64,000 bases of DNA, taken from NCBI GenBank assembly GCA_012842395.1, contig DUSX01000002.1, forward strand, positions 124,001 to 188,000, written 5' to 3'. A program made the position numbers and the translations under genes. Positions 23,403-40,015 of the stretch are shown one piece after another. The notes beneath the pieces were generated by a model that saw only the letters and a list, made by a program, of their open reading frames with translations, was not told the DNA's origin and ran no database searches. This DNA comes from Bacillota bacterium (GTDB taxonomy: Bacteria; Bacillota; SHA-98; UBA4971). Position 1 is the first letter of the stretch; each line of letters begins with the position of its first letter.

Positions 23403-25085
23403 CTACAGGTCCAGCCAGACCTCGGTGAACTTGTTGCAATATTGCCCGAACGACGGGAGCTTGTATCCTCGCACGAAGGGCTTTATCATGTTGTGGCTCG
23501 TATAGTGGTATATGAATACCCAGGGCGCATCCTCGACCACGATCTGCTCGGCTTTCTGGTATAGTTTCCTCCTGACCTCCTGGTCTGTGGCAAGCCTGGC
23601 TTGCTTCGTGAGATCGTCAAAGAGCGGGTTATGATACCTAGTGTAGTTACCTGGGTCTCCGAAGTTGTCGGAGTTCAACAGGACGTACAGGAAGTTGTCG
23701 GGGTCGGGATAGTCGACGACCCAGCCCATGCGGAAGAAAGGCACAGTCCCTTGGGTGCCGCATGTGTCAAGGTGGGCACCCCAGTCCACGTTCTTGAGGT
23801 CGACCTTGATACCGACCTGGGCGAACTGAGCCTGGAGAGCTTCGGCTATCCTTTTGTGGCCCTGGCTCGTGTTGTACTGGAGCGTCACCTGGACGCCTTT
23901 GGGATATCCAGCTTTCACGAGAAGATCTTTGGCCATCTTTGGATCATAGGTGTAGCCTTTGAGGTTCTCATTGTAAGCGAACATCCCGGGTGGGAGCACT
24001 CCCTTGGCAGGCATGGCGCGGCCGTTGAGCACGAAGTCAATAAGGGCCTGTCTGTTTATGGCGTAGTTAAAGGCCTGTCTCAGATACTTGTTGTCTTTGA
24101 ACGGCGGGAGGGTCTGGTTCATGCCGTAGTAGTACGTGCCCAGCTGCGGCCTCTCAAGGTAGGTGCCAAGCTCGTTCACGGCGGTCTTCACGCCCTTGTC
24201 GACCTTCAAGCCTTTGGACGCCTCGGGATAGTATGGGTCGTCTACCTGTGTGGCGTAGAGGTTGCCCAGCTTGTACTCGGTCCATTCAATTGTGGCGTCG
24301 GTGATGATCCTGAACTCGATGCTGTCAAGATAAGGGAGCCTGTTGCCCCACTTGTCCTTCATCCAGTAATTCTCGTTCCGGGACAACACCAGCTTGTCAT
24401 CGTGCTTCCAAGACTCGAACTTGAAAGGCCCGGTTCCCACGACGTGGAAGTTCCAGTCCTTGCCCCACTTCAACACGTCTTCCTTGGGCAACACCACGAA
24501 CGTGTTGTAGCTCAACACTGCGATGAACGGGGCAAACGGATAGGTGGTCTCGATCTGCAGCGTGAATTTGTCGAGGGCCTTGATGCCCGAGATCGACTGG
24601 GCCTTCCCTTCGCGATACTCCTTGTAGCCCTTTACCATGTCGATGAAGTAGGCCCGCGGGGAATTGGTCTTCGGATCGCAGATGTAGTTGAAGGTCCATA
24701 CCCAGTCGTCCGCGGTGACCTCGCGGCCTCCATTTGCGGTGGGTTTGCCACCTTCGGTGGTCTTGTGGAAGTACACACCTTTCCGGAGTTTGAACGTGAA
24801 GGTCTTGCCGTCGGGAGAGGCTTTCCAGGACTCCGCGAGGAGAGGCACGATCTCGCCGTTAGGGTCGATCGCGACTAGGGTTTCGAAGATCTGATAACCA
24901 ACCTCGGCTGAGGTGGTATCCGTTGCCATAACGGGGTCAAGGTCGGGGGGATCTGCGCCGAGGGCGTCCTTCCAGATGCCGCCGTACTTTGGCTGCTGTT
25001 CCTGCCCGCTCGCGAGGAGCGTGCACGCCAGGACCAGGGCAGCCGCAAGGAACAACGTCGTCGTCACGCGGCCTCTACGGAACAT
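23403..25085 (-). CDS. Peptide/solute-binding protein, SBP_bac_5 family, normal domain order
   Basis: Extracytoplasmic receptor delivering peptides to the permeases downstream. 560 residues, normal for the family. Start ATG 25085 has AAGGAGGT upstream. Signal region about 8-27; VLAC could be a weak lipobox, or cleavage may occur after LLASG. The mature protein begins in the standard order: ADPPDLDPVMATDT, AESWKASPDGKTFTFKLRKG, then GTGPFKFESWKHDDKLVLSRN, ending with AGYPKGVQVTLQYNTSQGHK, DYPDPDNF and KAEQIVVEDAPWV. It provides an internal reference for the permuted paralogue at 38156-39832. First gene of the operon. Confidence 0.95.
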   Translation of the reverse strand: MFRRGRVTTTLFLAAALVLACTLLASGQEQQPKYGGIWKDALGADPPDLDPVMATDTTSAEVGYQIFETLVAIDPNGEIVPLLAESWKASPDGKTFTFKLRKGVYFHKTTEGGKPTANGGREVTADDWVWTFNYICDPKTNSPRAYFIDMVKGYKEYREGKAQSISGIKALDKFTLQIETTYPFAPFIAVLSYNTFVVLPKEDVLKWGKDWNFHVVGTGPFKFESWKHDDKLVLSRNENYWMKDKWGNRLPYLDSIEFRIITDATIEWTEYKLGNLYATQVDDPYYPEASKGLKVDKGVKTAVNELGTYLERPQLGTYYYGMNQTLPPFKDNKYLRQAFNYAINRQALIDFVLNGRAMPAKGVLPPGMFAYNENLKGYTYDPKMAKDLLVKAGYPKGVQVTLQYNTSQGHKRIAEALQAQFAQVGIKVDLKNVDWGAHLDTCGTQGTVPFFRMGWVVDYPDPDNFLYVLLNSDNFGDPGNYTRYHNPLFDDLTKQARLATDQEVRRKLYQKAEQIVVEDAPWVFIYHYTSHNMIKPFVRGYKLPSFGQYCNKFTEVWLDL

Positions 25086-34030: not shown

Positions 34031-34996
34031 TCAATAGAGGTGGCACGCCGTGAAATGCCCTGGGGCGACCTGCTTCAGCTTCGGGTCCTCCTCTCGACAC
34101 ACGGGTTTCACGTGCCTGCATCGAGTCTGAAACCGGCACCCTTTCGGCGGGTTGACAGGGCTTGGGACCTCGCCCTGGAGAACGATGCGTTTCCTTTCCC
34201 TTTCGAGCCTTGGATCCGGTATGGGGATCGCCGAGAGCAGACCCTCGGTGTAGGGGTGAAGCGGGTTCTTGTAAAGCTCCGTGCTGGGGGCCAGCTCGAC
34301 CAACCGGCCGAGGTACATCACCCCGACGTTGTCGGAAAGATGCTTCACCATGGCAAGGTCATGGGCGATGAAAATGTATGTGAGCCCCCTCTGCTCTCTC
34401 AGCCGTGAAAGCAAGTTCACGACCTGCGCTTGGATCGACACGTCCAGTGCGGAAATGGGCTCGTCGGCTACGATGAACTCCGGGTCCACGGCGAGCGCGC
34501 GGGCTATGCCGATGCGCTGGCGCTGACCGCCCGAGAACTCGTGCGGGAACCTGTTCGCGTGCTCGGCCGAGAGCCCCACAATGCTGAGGAGCTCGTGTAT
34601 CCTCGCGAGGCGCTCTTTACCCCTTGCAAGGCTGTGGATGTCGAGGGCCTCCCCAATGATGTCGCCCACCGTCATCCGAGGATCGAGAGACGCATATGGG
34701 TCTTGGAAGATCATCTGGACCCGGCGTTTGAACCTCTTTAGCTCCGCGCCCTTCAACGTGCTCGTATCCTCGCCCTTGTAAAGGATCTTGCCGCCGGTGG
34801 GGCTGTAGAGCCCTACGATCGTCCGCCCCGCGGTCGTCTTCCCGCAGCCGCTCTCACCCACGAGGCCGAACACCTCGCCCTTCCTCACCGAGAAGGTTAC
34901 GTCGTCCACAGCCTTGAGCACCGCCCTGCGGCCGAACTGGAAGTATTTCTTGAGGTTTATTACCTCGAGAACTGTATCCTGCGTATCGTGAGACAT
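34031..34996 (-). CDS. oppF: Oligopeptide ABC transporter ATP-binding protein OppF
   Basis: ATPase driving peptide import on the cytoplasmic face. 321 residues from ATG 34996, which overlaps the oppD stop. Walker [18 protein letters not shown]-loop, signature [15 protein letters not shown], Walker [18 protein letters not shown]-loop [14 protein letters not shown]. The C-terminal oligopeptide-transporter extension contains Cys residues ([17 protein letters not shown]), which in homologues ligate a 4Fe-4S cluster. Last gene of the opp operon. Confidence 0.95.
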
Positions 34997-36045
34997 CACC
35001 TTGCGCCTCCTCTAGCACCGGAGTCCTCCGCCCCGCCGGCGGCGTGCCTTTCCCTGACACGCGCGGCTCTTGGGTCCATGAGCCAGCAGGCCACAGTGTG
35101 GTTCTCGCCCGCCGCGAAGTCCCCGGGCTCGTGCTCCACGCACACTCTCATCGCATAGCTGCAGCGCGGTGCGAAGGCGCATCCCTGGGGCGGGACGAAA
35201 AGGTCCGGGGGCGTGCCGGGTATGGCGAGCAGCTCTCTCTTGGTCTCTTCGTGGAGCCTCGGCACGGACTTTAGAAGCGCCTGGGTGTACGGATGCTGAG
35301 CGTTATAGAAAATGTCCTCGGAGGTGCCGGCCTCAGCGACCTTTCCGGCATACATGACCACTATCCTATCTGCCAGCTTGGAAACCACGCCGAGGTCATG
35401 GGTTATCAGGATTATGGACGTGTTGAGCTTGGTCTGCAAGCTCTTCATGAGGTCGAGAATCTGGGCCTGGATGGTCACGTCTAGGCCCGTGGTGGGCTCG
35501 TCTGCTATGAGGAGCTTCGGGTTACACGAGAGCGCGATCGCGATCATGACGCGCTGTCTCATGCCGCCGCTGAACTGGTGAGGATACTGGCCGAACCTCT
35601 CGCTCGGGTTCGGTATCTCGACGAGCGATAGCATCTCGATAGCGCGTCGCCTTGCCTCCTGCGCCGAGAGCCTCTGGTGCTTGATGAGCCCTTCTGTGAT
35701 CTGCCTGCCCACGGTCATAGTGGGGTTCAGAGATGTCATGGGGTCCTGAAATATCACGCCGATTTCAGCGCCTCTCACGCTCTGGAGATCGCGGTCGCTC
35801 ATGGCGGCAAGGTCTCTGCCGTCGAAAAGCACTGTACCCCCTTCGATCTTTCCCGGGGGCATGGGGATGAGCTTGATGACCGACTGCACAGAGACGGTCT
35901 TTCCGCAGCCGGACTCGCCGACTATCGCCAAAGTCTCCCCCTTGTTAACGTGGAACGACACGCCGCGAACCGCGTGCACTTTGCCAGCGTAGGTGTAGAA
36001 GGAGACCTTGAGGTTTCTGACTTCGAGCAACCTTTCCTCAGCCAT
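34996..36045 (-). CDS. oppD: Oligopeptide ABC transporter ATP-binding protein OppD
   Basis: Partner ATPase of OppF. 349 residues from ATG 36045, chosen because GGAGGTG lies 6 nt upstream. Walker [18 protein letters not shown], signature [15 protein letters not shown], Walker [18 protein letters not shown]-loop [15 protein letters not shown]-terminal extension with [15 protein letters not shown], the cysteine pattern of OppD/DppD proteins. Separated from oppC by about 5 bases. Confidence 0.95.
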
Positions 36046-36050
36046 CCTTC

Positions 36051-36983
36051 TCACCTCCGCAGTTTCGGGTCAAGCGCATCCCGCAAGCCGTCGCCCACGA
36101 AGTTGAACCCCAGCATAGTCATGATGATGGCGAGCGCCGGGATGATCAGCTGATAGGGGTATATCCTAAGGTATTGATACCCGTCGTTCGCCATTGTGCC
36201 GAGGCTTGCGAGGGGCAGCGGCACTCCAAGCCCGATGAAGCTCAAGAACGCCTCGCCGAATATGGCGTTCGGGATAGTGAAGGTCATCTGAACGATGATG
36301 ACTCCCATGGCGTTGGGGATGAGGTGCCGAAGGATTATACCGAGGTGGCTTGCTCCGAGTGCTCGCGCGGCCAGCACGAACTCCTGCTCTTTGAGCTGCA
36401 GCACTTGCCCACGCACGAGCCTGGCCATACCGACCCACCCGGTTATGGTCATGGCCAGGATCACCGACCAAAGGCCGGGACCGATGACCACGAGGAGGAG
36501 GATGGCGACGATGATATAGGGGATGCCGTAGAGAATGTCCACGATCCTCATCATCACGTCGTCCACTATGCCGCCGAAGTACCCGGAGATCCCGCCGTAG
36601 ATCACGCCTACCACGAGGTCGATGAGGGCGGCCATGATCCCAACGAAAAGCGAGACCTTGATGCCGTAGCACAGCCTTGCGAACATGTCGCGTCCGAGGT
36701 TATCCGTGCCGAACCAGTGCTCTCTGGACGGAGGCTTGTTCGTGTCAAAGAGGCTCTGTTCCCTGGGGTCCCAAGGCGTAAAAAACGGCCCTAAGAACGC
36801 GAACGCCACAAGGGCTATCAGGACGACAAGGCCCACCACGGCAAGGCGGTTTCGCCTGAAACGCCTCACCACTTCTCGCCAATAGCTTATAGGGGGGCGC
36901 GTGATCGCTTCCCCTTCCCCCGCGCCGATGTGAAGGGGTTCGAACATGTCTTGTGTTATCTCCTGCACCGATGCCAATCTCAT
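36051..36983 (-). CDS. oppC: Oligopeptide ABC transporter permease OppC
   Basis: Membrane permease, about 310 residues from ATG 36983, which overlaps the oppB stop (TGATG). N-terminal cytoplasmic tail with SYWREVVRRFRRNRLAVVGL, HWFGTDNLGRDMFARL, six helices, EAA loop (EFVLAARALGASHLGIILRH), and C-terminal NFVGDGLRDALDPKLRR. Distinct from, but clearly homologous to, the OppC-type gene at 21066-22040. Confidence 0.94.
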   Translation of the reverse strand: MRLASVQEITQDMFEPLHIGAGEGEAITRPPISYWREVVRRFRRNRLAVVGLVVLIALVAFAFLGPFFTPWDPREQSLFDTNKPPSREHWFGTDNLGRDMFARLCYGIKVSLFVGIMAALIDLVVGVIYGGISGYFGGIVDDVMMRIVDILYGIPYIIVAILLLVVIGPGLWSVILAMTITGWVGMARLVRGQVLQLKEQEFVLAARALGASHLGIILRHLIPNAMGVIIVQMTFTIPNAIFGEAFLSFIGLGVPLPLASLGTMANDGYQYLRIYPYQLIIPALAIIMTMLGFNFVGDGLRDALDPKLRR

Positions 36984-37909
36984 CACTCCTTGCTCCTCAT
37001 GAGCCGGATCCTCGGGTCTACGATGCCATAGGCCACATCAACCAGGAAGTTCAGGAACACGAGGAGAACGGCGTAGAAGATGGTGGTCCCCAGGATAAGG
37101 GTATAGTCCCGGTTGAAGATGCTCTGCACATAATACTTGCCGAGCCCTGGTATGCCGAAGATCTGCTCGATGACGAAGCTACCCGTTACGATGCCCGCTG
37201 TGAGCGGACCGAGGATGGTTACGACAGGAAGGATAGCGTTCCGCAACACGTGACGGAAGACTATCTCCCGCTGCGAGAGCCCTTTGGCCTTAGCGGTCTT
37301 GATGTAGTCTTGGCTTGTGACATCGAGCACACTCGTGCGCATCATCCTCGCGACCACCGCGAGCGTGCCGAGCCCAAGGGCAGTGGCTGGCATTATGGTG
37401 TACTTGAAGCCTTCCCATCGGGCTATGGGAAGCCATCCGAGCTTGAGGCCTATTACGTACTGCATGAGGCTGCCCATGATGAACCCCGGCACCGATATGC
37501 CTATGAGTGCTACGAACATCGCAAGGTAGTCCACCCATGTGTTATGCTGGAACCCGGCGAGGGTGCCCAGGAGCAGGCCAAGGGTCACGGCGTACGCCAG
37601 CGCCTCAAGGCCTAGAAGCGCCGAGACCGGGAACCCATCGCGGATCATGTCGTTCACGGAGCGGTGAAGCATCTTCAGCGAGGTGCCGAAGTCCCCGCGC
37701 AGCAGGTTTCCAAGGTAGATCACGTATTGCTCCCAGAGGGGCTTGTCGAGGCCGTACTTCCGCAACATGTTCTGGCGGATCGCCTCGGTTACCTTCTCTC
37801 CAAGAAAGGGATCGCCCGGGATGGCGTGCATGAGAAAGAAGGTGGCGGTGACGATCACCCAAAGCGCGGCAAGCATCAACCCGAACCGCCTGAGTATGTA
37901 GCGTCCCAA
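36983..37909 (-). CDS. oppB: Oligopeptide ABC transporter permease OppB
   Basis: Membrane permease, about 308 residues. Start TTG 37909 is chosen because AAAGGAG lies 8 nt upstream and it gives MGRYILRRFGLMLAALW, a typical OppB start; the open frame extends upstream but without OppB-like sequence. Six predicted helices, MHAIPGDPF periplasmic motif, EAA loop (DYIKTAKAKGLSQREIVFRH). Lies 247 bases after the binding-protein gene, with a strong intercistronic hairpin between. Confidence 0.93.
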   Translation of the reverse strand: MGRYILRRFGLMLAALWVIVTATFFLMHAIPGDPFLGEKVTEAIRQNMLRKYGLDKPLWEQYVIYLGNLLRGDFGTSLKMLHRSVNDMIRDGFPVSALLGLEALAYAVTLGLLLGTLAGFQHNTWVDYLAMFVALIGISVPGFIMGSLMQYVIGLKLGWLPIARWEGFKYTIMPATALGLGTLAVVARMMRTSVLDVTSQDYIKTAKAKGLSQREIVFRHVLRNAILPVVTILGPLTAGIVTGSFVIEQIFGIPGLGKYYVQSIFNRDYTLILGTTIFYAVLLVFLNFLVDVAYGIVDPRIRLMRSKE

Positions 37910-37980
37910 AACACCCACTCCTTTGCCGCGGTCACGCGCGCCGTGCGCCTGTTCCGAAAGACCGAGTGACCGCATCATAC

Positions 37981-38021
37981 GGCAGCGAGGCCCTGCTTTC
38001 CTGGCGCAGGGCCTCGCTGCC
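37981..38021 (-). other. 16-bp perfect intercistronic stem-loop, oppA-oppB
   Basis: GGCAGCGAGGCCCTGC (37981-37996) and its exact complement (38006-38021) enclose a 9-base loop. In the direction of the operon no T-run follows, so it resembles the mRNA-stabilising intercistronic hairpins after binding-protein genes that keep receptor mRNA above permease mRNA. On the plus strand it is followed by TGCTTTTC, which is irrelevant to this operon. Confidence 0.75.
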
Positions 38022-38155
38022 TGCTTTTCGATAGTCCTATGCCGGGAATACCCGGGGATGTACATGCCTGTTGGGAGGAGATTCCACACCTGAGAACCGG
38101 GCCGAATCCGGCCTTGTGGCCTTACCTATCCCGGGCTCCTCCCGGACCCCCGGGA

Positions 38156-39832
38156 CTAGGGCATGGCGTAACCAAGCTCAGCGAGACCCTCTGCCAGGAG
38201 CTGCTTTGCCAGCTTGACATCGGCCTTCGTAGGCAGCAGGTCGCCGACGTATACATCGTGGAACGATACTCCGTCCTTGCCGTGAATCGTTGGCGGCACC
38301 AGAGATGTCGCCGGCAGCGAGCCGTTCTTCAGCACGTAGTCGACGTAAGCCTGCCTATCGATGGCGAGGGAGAACGCCTTGCGAACCTTCGCGTTCTTGA
38401 AGATCTCGTGCTTGCAGTTGAACTCGAGGTACCATGAGGTCGCCTCGGCGATGGTCTTCATGCCCTTGTTCCTGTACTGGTCGATGTAGGTTCCGGGGAC
38501 ACCGACGAAGTCAAGCTCTCCTGCGTCGAACATGTTCAGCGGGGTGGCGATGTCCTTGATCATGTCGGCCTCGATGCGCTGCAGCTTGACTGACTTGGCA
38601 TCCCAGTAGTTCGGGTTCTTCTCGAGGATGATCTTGTACTCGTGCTGCCACTTGGAGACCTTGAACGGCCCGCACGCCACCATCTTGTCGACCTCTGAGG
38701 CGTACTCGTCGCCGAGCTTCTCTACCATGTGCTTCGGGCTCGGCATGTAGGTGATGAACGTGATGAGGTCGAGGAAGAACGGAGTGGGCGCCTCGAGCTC
38801 TACGCGCAGGGTCTTAGCGTCGAGCGCCTTGACTCCCACCGTCGCGAGGGCATCATCGATGGCCTTGTTCTTCTCGGCTTTCTTGGGATCCTTGTCGTCA
38901 GGAACCTCCATGCCATTGACTTTCTCGGCGTTCTTGATCACATACATCATGTACGCGTACTGGGACGCTGTGCGTGGGTCGATGGCCCTCTTCCAGCCAT
39001 ACTCGAAGTCATACGCAGTGACGGCGACTCCGTCGCTCCACTTGGCATCGCGGAGCTTGAAGGTGTACACCTTACGATCCTTCGATACGGTCCAGCTCTC
39101 GGCGAGGCCGGAGCCCGGGAGGACCTTCATCTCCGGGTTTTTCCGGGCGAGACCCTCATAGGTCGCGTTGATGACCCAGAAAGACACCTGGTCCGTGGAG
39201 GTGGCCGGGTCGAGATCCGGCGGCTCCTCGCCAAAGTTCAGGCGGAGGAACTGGTCCTTGTCGCCGCCCGGGCGCCCTTCTGTGTAGGCCCACTTCCATT
39301 CGTAGTCGGAGCCCACGGTCTTGCGGATAACGTTCTTGACGTAAGGATGCTCGACGTAGTTCCAGGCGGGCCAGTACAGAGGCGCTATGGGCATCTCGCC
39401 GATGAGGATCTTCTCCGCCTGGGACATGGCTTTCATGCGGACTGCTTCGTCGGAAGAGGTCTTCGCCACATCGATAAGCTTATCGTAGCTGGGATTGCTC
39501 CACATGACGTCGTTGAAGGGGCCGTCGGTCACCCACATGTCGAGGAACGTCATGGGATCGTCGTAGTCGGCGCCCCAGCCGGCGAAGACGATCTGGAAGT
39601 CCTTGTTTCTCATCTTTTGAAGCCTTGTCTTGAAGTCGACCGCCTCGATCTCGATGGGGAGACCGAGGTTCTTACGAATCATTTCCTGCACGCCCTGGGC
39701 ATAAAGCCTGGCGATCTGGGAGTCGCCCGAGAGCAGGACCAGCTTCGGCAGGGGCTTTGCTGCACTGACAAGCCCGACGCTCATGGTTGCAAGCACAAGC
39801 GCCGCCATGAGCACGACAAGCACTCTTCTCAT
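38156..39832 (-). CDS. oppA: Oligopeptide-binding protein OppA-like, circularly permuted
   Basis: Receptor of the downstream OppBCDF importer. 558 residues from ATG 39832, with AAGGAGGT 7 nt upstream. Signal peptide 1-24, no lipobox cysteine. Residues 26-184 (KPLPKLVLLSGDSQ, FAGWGADYDDPMTFLDMW, EKILIGEMPIAPLY) are what normally forms the C-terminal third of OppA. After a Gly/Pro linker (185-193), residues 194-558 are the normal N-terminal part (FGEEPPDLDPAT, YTFKLRDAKWSDGVAVTA, ending LLAEGLAELGYAMP). The new ends match the normal junction exactly: E. coli OppA reads AEAGYTAD then KPLTINLL. One unbroken frame, so this is a circular permutation and not a frameshift. Confidence 0.92.
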   Translation of the reverse strand: MRRVLVVLMAALVLATMSVGLVSAAKPLPKLVLLSGDSQIARLYAQGVQEMIRKNLGLPIEIEAVDFKTRLQKMRNKDFQIVFAGWGADYDDPMTFLDMWVTDGPFNDVMWSNPSYDKLIDVAKTSSDEAVRMKAMSQAEKILIGEMPIAPLYWPAWNYVEHPYVKNVIRKTVGSDYEWKWAYTEGRPGGDKDQFLRLNFGEEPPDLDPATSTDQVSFWVINATYEGLARKNPEMKVLPGSGLAESWTVSKDRKVYTFKLRDAKWSDGVAVTAYDFEYGWKRAIDPRTASQYAYMMYVIKNAEKVNGMEVPDDKDPKKAEKNKAIDDALATVGVKALDAKTLRVELEAPTPFFLDLITFITYMPSPKHMVEKLGDEYASEVDKMVACGPFKVSKWQHEYKIILEKNPNYWDAKSVKLQRIEADMIKDIATPLNMFDAGELDFVGVPGTYIDQYRNKGMKTIAEATSWYLEFNCKHEIFKNAKVRKAFSLAIDRQAYVDYVLKNGSLPATSLVPPTIHGKDGVSFHDVYVGDLLPTKADVKLAKQLLAEGLAELGYAMP

Positions 39833-40015
39833 TCAATATACCTCCTTGCTTTCTCGTCCGCTTGACTCGAAGGCCTCATCAGCTGCCTCGTGCAATGCGG
39901 TCTTGTGGAAGCCGCACGTAGAAGCGCACTGCTATCTCGCAACCAGTAGGCCATCACTCCCTTCTGGCGTCGAGTCACAGCCTAAGTAGATCACCACAAG
40001 TTCGTGCTGCTGTTC

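Follow-up and report, generated by a model that had tools for sequence, protein, structure and literature searches.

A 64,000-nucleotide stretch of DNA (all of it referred to here as the window) contains a gene whose exported product is very likely a natural circular permutant of an oligopeptide-binding protein that serves the OppBCDF ABC importer encoded downstream, and is among at least four permutations that arose independently in its family. The first-pass annotation of the window had described the reading frame at 38156-39832 as the two halves of an OppA protein in reversed order. This order was confirmed with phmmer, Pfam and a local HMM, and the strand was corrected to minus (Table 1). 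In the separate alignment of the two parts to the structure of Bacillus subtilis OppA (8are) that had been proposed as a check, phmmer matched residues 185-556 to chain residues 11-363 (i-Evalue 4.7e-64) and residues 23-177 to chain residues 363-518 (2.7e-26), which puts the two parts in reversed order with their boundary at chain residue 363. The Pfam family SBP_bac_5 (PF00496) likewise matches the protein in two stretches, the best of which aligns residues 242-552 with positions 5-279 of the 368-position profile; the score is 289 bits, where the cut-off is 32.4. The local HMM (profile length 555), which was built from 18 normal-order proteins, aligns residues 27-185 with positions 396-554 and residues 191-554 with positions 48-393. 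Every block of the family is therefore present exactly once (profile 48-393 and 396-554), with the C-terminal third placed before the N-terminal two thirds instead of in the canonical linear order. In its sequence, the protein shows both a permuted order and joined ancestral termini, as expected of a circular permutant of OppA. The DppA-like paralogue in the same window, proposed earlier as an internal control, indeed serves as one: its residues 78-476 match SBP_bac_5 positions 1-367 in a single stretch, that is, in the normal order.

Table 1. Features of the permuted oppA locus in the window, and further permuted genes of the same genome (positions refer to the window unless a contig is given)
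Feature	Position	Strand	Remarks
Permuted oppA (type T1), 558 aa plus stop	38156..39832	minus	ATG start
Ribosome-binding site AGGAGG	39841..39846	minus	8 nt before the ATG; read directly
Signal peptide, residues 1-25 (MRRVLVV...VSAA)	39758..39832	minus	no lipobox cysteine; sequence inspection
Residues 26-184, family C-terminal third (KPLPKLVLL...WKWAYT)	39281..39757	minus	includes WGADY (W86, D89)
Residues 185-193, linker between ancestral C- and N-termini	39254..39280	minus	GRPGGD block
Residues 194-558, family N-terminal two thirds	38159..39253	minus	final AELGYAMP, then stop
Hairpin between oppA and oppB, 16 bp, perfect, without T-run	37981..38021	minus	-42.1 kcal/mol, z -5.3
oppB, permease ORF	36983..38089	minus	true start probably near 37910-37920
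oppC, permease	36051..36986	minus	
oppD, ATPase	34996..36054	minus	
oppF, ATPase	34031..34999	minus	
Normal-order SBP_bac_5 paralogue (DppA-like)	23403..25085	minus	internal control
P0003 (type T2)	G000 contig C36:13646-15229 (L006:1456-3042)		second permuted SBP_bac_5 in the genome of the window
P0004 (type T3)	G000 contig C35 (L009:433-2121)		third permuted SBP_bac_5 in the genome of the window

The permuted gene comes first in an oppA-B-C-D-F array in every examined genome that encodes this type (denoted T1), as far as the contigs reach. The hairpin between oppA and oppB might be an mRNA stabilizer or an attenuator yielding more oppA than oppB product. In one genome of the same genus (G005; L110, G005:C7), the whole operon is absent, and the genes for CTP synthase, Rho and a radical-SAM protein adjoin; the site between the rho and radical-SAM genes is cleanly empty. 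Because G014 and G016, from another family of the same class, also have the operon beside the genes for Rho and CTP synthase, loss of the operon in G005 is the simpler reading.

Capture of peptides for OppBCDF appears to be the best-supported role of the permuted protein, as judged from sequence and gene context. Among sequences, the protein is nearest to OppA, and it is encoded together with oppBCDF, as expected of a member of the OppA subfamily; the NCBIfam equivalog cut-offs are reached neither by this protein nor by the normal paralogue. Two residues of the WGADY block, W86 and D89, which we take to be the ligand contacts W416 and D419 of Salmonella typhimurium OppA, are invariant in seven T1 sequences. 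The ribosome-binding site, the signal peptide and the full set of conserved blocks that had been invoked in favor of a functional gene are all in place; a lipobox cysteine, absent from the signal peptide in the window, is present in several T2 proteins. Two AlphaFold2 models obtained from shallow re-cut alignments were weak (mean pLDDT of 65 and 64, below 50 at the junction), and a Foldseek search with these models returned OppA as the first match over part of the length (about 300-400 columns).

A search for other permuted proteins, also suggested at the outset, yielded three further types, two of them in the same genome. P0003 (T2) is a DppA-like protein of 528 aa, with residues 241-524 corresponding to DppA 72-367 and residues 53-179 to DppA 389-518; opp-like permease and ATPase genes are located downstream. 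P0004 (T3) is AppA-like (562 aa; residues 236-554 correspond to AppA 44-358, and residues 55-173 to AppA 375-488). The fourth type, T4, was found in relatives of the genome of the window (L106, L108 and others) and differs in the cut point, at about profile position 250, such that the protein both starts after and ends with a VRLxKNPxYW block. In the T4 open frame of G450, residues 38-354 align with profile positions 248-552 and residues 366-567 with positions 50-251; against DppA, residues 34-175 match 232-370 and residues 368-448 match 34-108. A permuted protein of L233 (G372:C8), 31% identical to T2, may reflect a fifth event. By contrast, a 1149-aa open frame of G020 that was considered as an OppA-OppA fusion actually resolves into one ORF of 562 aa and another of 553 aa.

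The spread of permuted proteins was assessed with a junction profile, in which permuted proteins span the junction and normal proteins match the halves only. At least 49 of the 398 genomes sampled in the phylum, from approximately 21 families, have a junction-spanning match; this number is a lower bound given that scoring covered the top eight candidates of each genome. When 20 weaker or unfetched candidates were checked by ORF, all were permuted, and more permuted proteins are present in the class of G200. Type T3 is also found in Alphaproteobacteria and Haloarchaea: full-length, single-piece matches are encoded on plasmids of Microvirga, Neorhizobium, Nitratireductor, Roseomonas and Ketogulonicigenium (49-57% identity), and of Halalkalicoccus, Haladaptatus and Natrononativus (about 30%). 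All five of the plasmid matches that were checked, two of them archaeal, are permuted and head a permease-permease-ATPase-ATPase operon; these proteins are annotated only as substrate-binding proteins. The alphaproteobacterial and haloarchaeal relatives of T3 are encoded near genes for M28 peptidases, hydantoinases or creatininase-family proteins, and the Nitratireductor plasmid pOM-1 carries a second permuted substrate-binding protein. The plasmid matches of the T1 protein in the window (P0001), of P0003 and of the T4 protein came in two pieces, and those of P0003 and T4 that were fetched have the normal order.

The permuted order of T1 is present in 11 genomes of four families, namely the genome of the window and 10 others (G001-G004, G014, G016, G200, G375, G449 and G451), in which the orthologues are full-length, collinear and 56-95% identical to the protein in the window. 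In particular, identity is 93-95% in four further genomes of the same genus, 66% in G014 and G016, and 56-58% in G200, G451, G375 and G449, which belong to two further families. Conservation of the collinear order over the full length in the 10 other genomes, at these identities, excludes chance. Two of the 11 genomes, G200 and G375, are single contigs; the gene of G200 is intact, and that of G375 (L066:1489-3180) contains one in-frame TGA, either a nonsense mutation or a sequencing error. Within the genus, the whole-gene dN/dS in pairwise comparisons (genus-level pairs) is 0.03-0.07 and is similar in both parts, and values for the linker region (residues 178-200) are mostly 0-0.14. The GRPGGD block is invariant in all aligned T1 sequences, and the junction KWAYTxGRPGGD is kept in nearly all of them (one has KWSYT). 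The earlier proposal of a natural permutation in a functional gene is thus supported: orthologues exist in other families, the gene is present in two single-contig genomes (undamaged in one of them), it is under strong purifying selection, and its operon is intact.

These observations bear on two alternative explanations of the locus itself. The permuted order is not an assembly artefact. Collapse of tandem oppA genes or misjoining of a circularized fragment, during assembly or binning, could be suspected insofar as the genome of the window is a draft of 61 contigs and tandem oppA genes do exist in a sister lineage; nevertheless, the chance of such an error is negligible given that independent assemblies, including the single contigs of G200 and G375, share this order and this junction at an identity of about 56%, the join is in frame in every intact T1 copy, and dN/dS is about 0.05. 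A pair of neighboring normal oppA genes here, in long reads or related genomes, had been named as an observation that would refute the permutation; such a pair was found in none of the close relatives. It is also conceivable that the protein is permuted but no longer serves transport, being instead a sensor, a chaperone or the product of a decaying gene, as the in-frame TGA in G375 and the clean absence of the operon from G005 might indicate. The intact signal peptide, ribosome-binding site and ligand-contact block, the full oppBCDF set and the strong purifying selection make this extremely unlikely.

The other two alternatives concern descent. In separate trees of the N- and C-terminal parts, both T1 parts are placed beside the same normal clade (OppA of family f66, and G025), which implies permutation rather than a distant chimera. 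The two trees differ in detail, as would be the case if two unrelated binding-protein genes had been fused; with the same nearest normal relatives for both parts, which together make up exactly one complete fold with no block duplicated or missing, a chimera is very unlikely. A single ancient permutation behind all permuted types, followed by reversion to the normal order, could account for the nearly identical cut points of T1-T3 (N-parts end at profile positions 390-400, and C-parts mostly start at 379-415) and for the weak sister grouping of T3 and T4 (91/81). However, the cut point of T4 differs from the others, and in a tree of 47 proteins, with the permuted ones re-ordered to normal, T1 is nested inside normal OppA, T2 groups with the normal proteins L115 and L206 (100/99), and T3 and T4 fall elsewhere. 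Furthermore, approximately unbiased (AU) tests reject a single clade for T1 and T2 (p 1.5e-6), for T2 and T3 (about 2e-5) and for all permuted rows (1.2e-6), so that one ancient event is extremely improbable. The rejection of a single origin implies at least four independent permutations in the SBP_bac_5 family. Two normal proteins (L023 and L024) are placed between T1 proteins in the trees; the AU tests do not reject monophyly of T1 (p 0.23 and 0.73).

With regard to the origin of T1 by permutation, its N-part is closest, among normal-order proteins, to OppA of family f66 (up to 57% identity), and in two f66 genomes (G261 and G466) a tandem pair of normal oppA genes immediately precedes oppBCDF. 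A route through duplication, starting from such a tandem pair, is plausible. The upstream copy would have contributed the signal peptide and the C-terminal third, the downstream copy the N-terminal two thirds, and the outer parts of the pair would have been lost. The ancestral N- and C-termini, which we take to lie both in domain I of OppA, would thereby have been joined by the short GRPGGD linker, and new termini would have opened in a loop of what is presumably domain III; the same two-lobed fold would form and close on peptides. The suggestion, made in the first-pass annotation, of tandem duplication followed by loss of outer parts is supported by the tandem normal genes of f66. The simple prediction that the C-part of T1 should be most like the upstream f66 copy and the N-part most like the downstream one did not hold: both T1 parts best resemble the upstream copy, and the f66 copies cannot be assigned as direct parents of T1.

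Few natural circular permutants have close normal-order relatives in sequence, and a large family that was permuted repeatedly at one loop is rarer still. We consider it possible, if somewhat short of probable, that cluster C binding proteins have been circularly permuted repeatedly and under selection, in at least four events, three of them near the same loop, across Bacillota, Alphaproteobacteria and Haloarchaea, the reason being altered tethering, lobe dynamics or ligand range once the exported or anchored N-terminus sits on another domain. The duplication model can be tested here, with close normal relatives, a lineage that retains the tandem duplicate and single-contig genomes at hand. 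These proteins also reveal a blind spot of annotation, since the permuted proteins that were looked up in annotated records have no label other than 'ABC transporter substrate-binding protein'. A loop that is reused in nature could be a ready site for the engineering of peptide sensors.

The first-pass annotation knew of no circular permutant in this binding-protein family; none from cluster C (SBP_bac_5) was found in the open-access full-text literature, where absence is no proof. Permutants of substrate-binding proteins as a class were known before, and it is their repetition within cluster C that we rate as surprising. Canonical cluster C OppA proteins, such as those of B. subtilis (8are) and S. 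typhimurium, share with T1 all sequence blocks, the signal peptide, WGADY and the oppBCDF operon; T1 differs in the reversed order of the parts, the short linker at the ancestral termini and the location of its new termini in the third domain. TpMglB-2 (Tp0684) of Treponema pallidum, assigned to 'cluster Bc', is a naturally circularly permuted binding protein of an ABC transporter that has been shown to bind ligand and close, and has relatives in other bacteria (PMC4990184). That protein belongs to the cluster B glucose-binding family, for which one permuted lineage was proposed, in contrast to at least four independent lineages with two cut sites in cluster C. Circular-permutation relationships were also detected, from structures, within the single functional class of glycine-betaine binding proteins (CPSARST, PMC2395249). 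Those relationships are structural, in another family and at identities below 24%, whereas the permutation described here is plain in the sequence and has close normal relatives.
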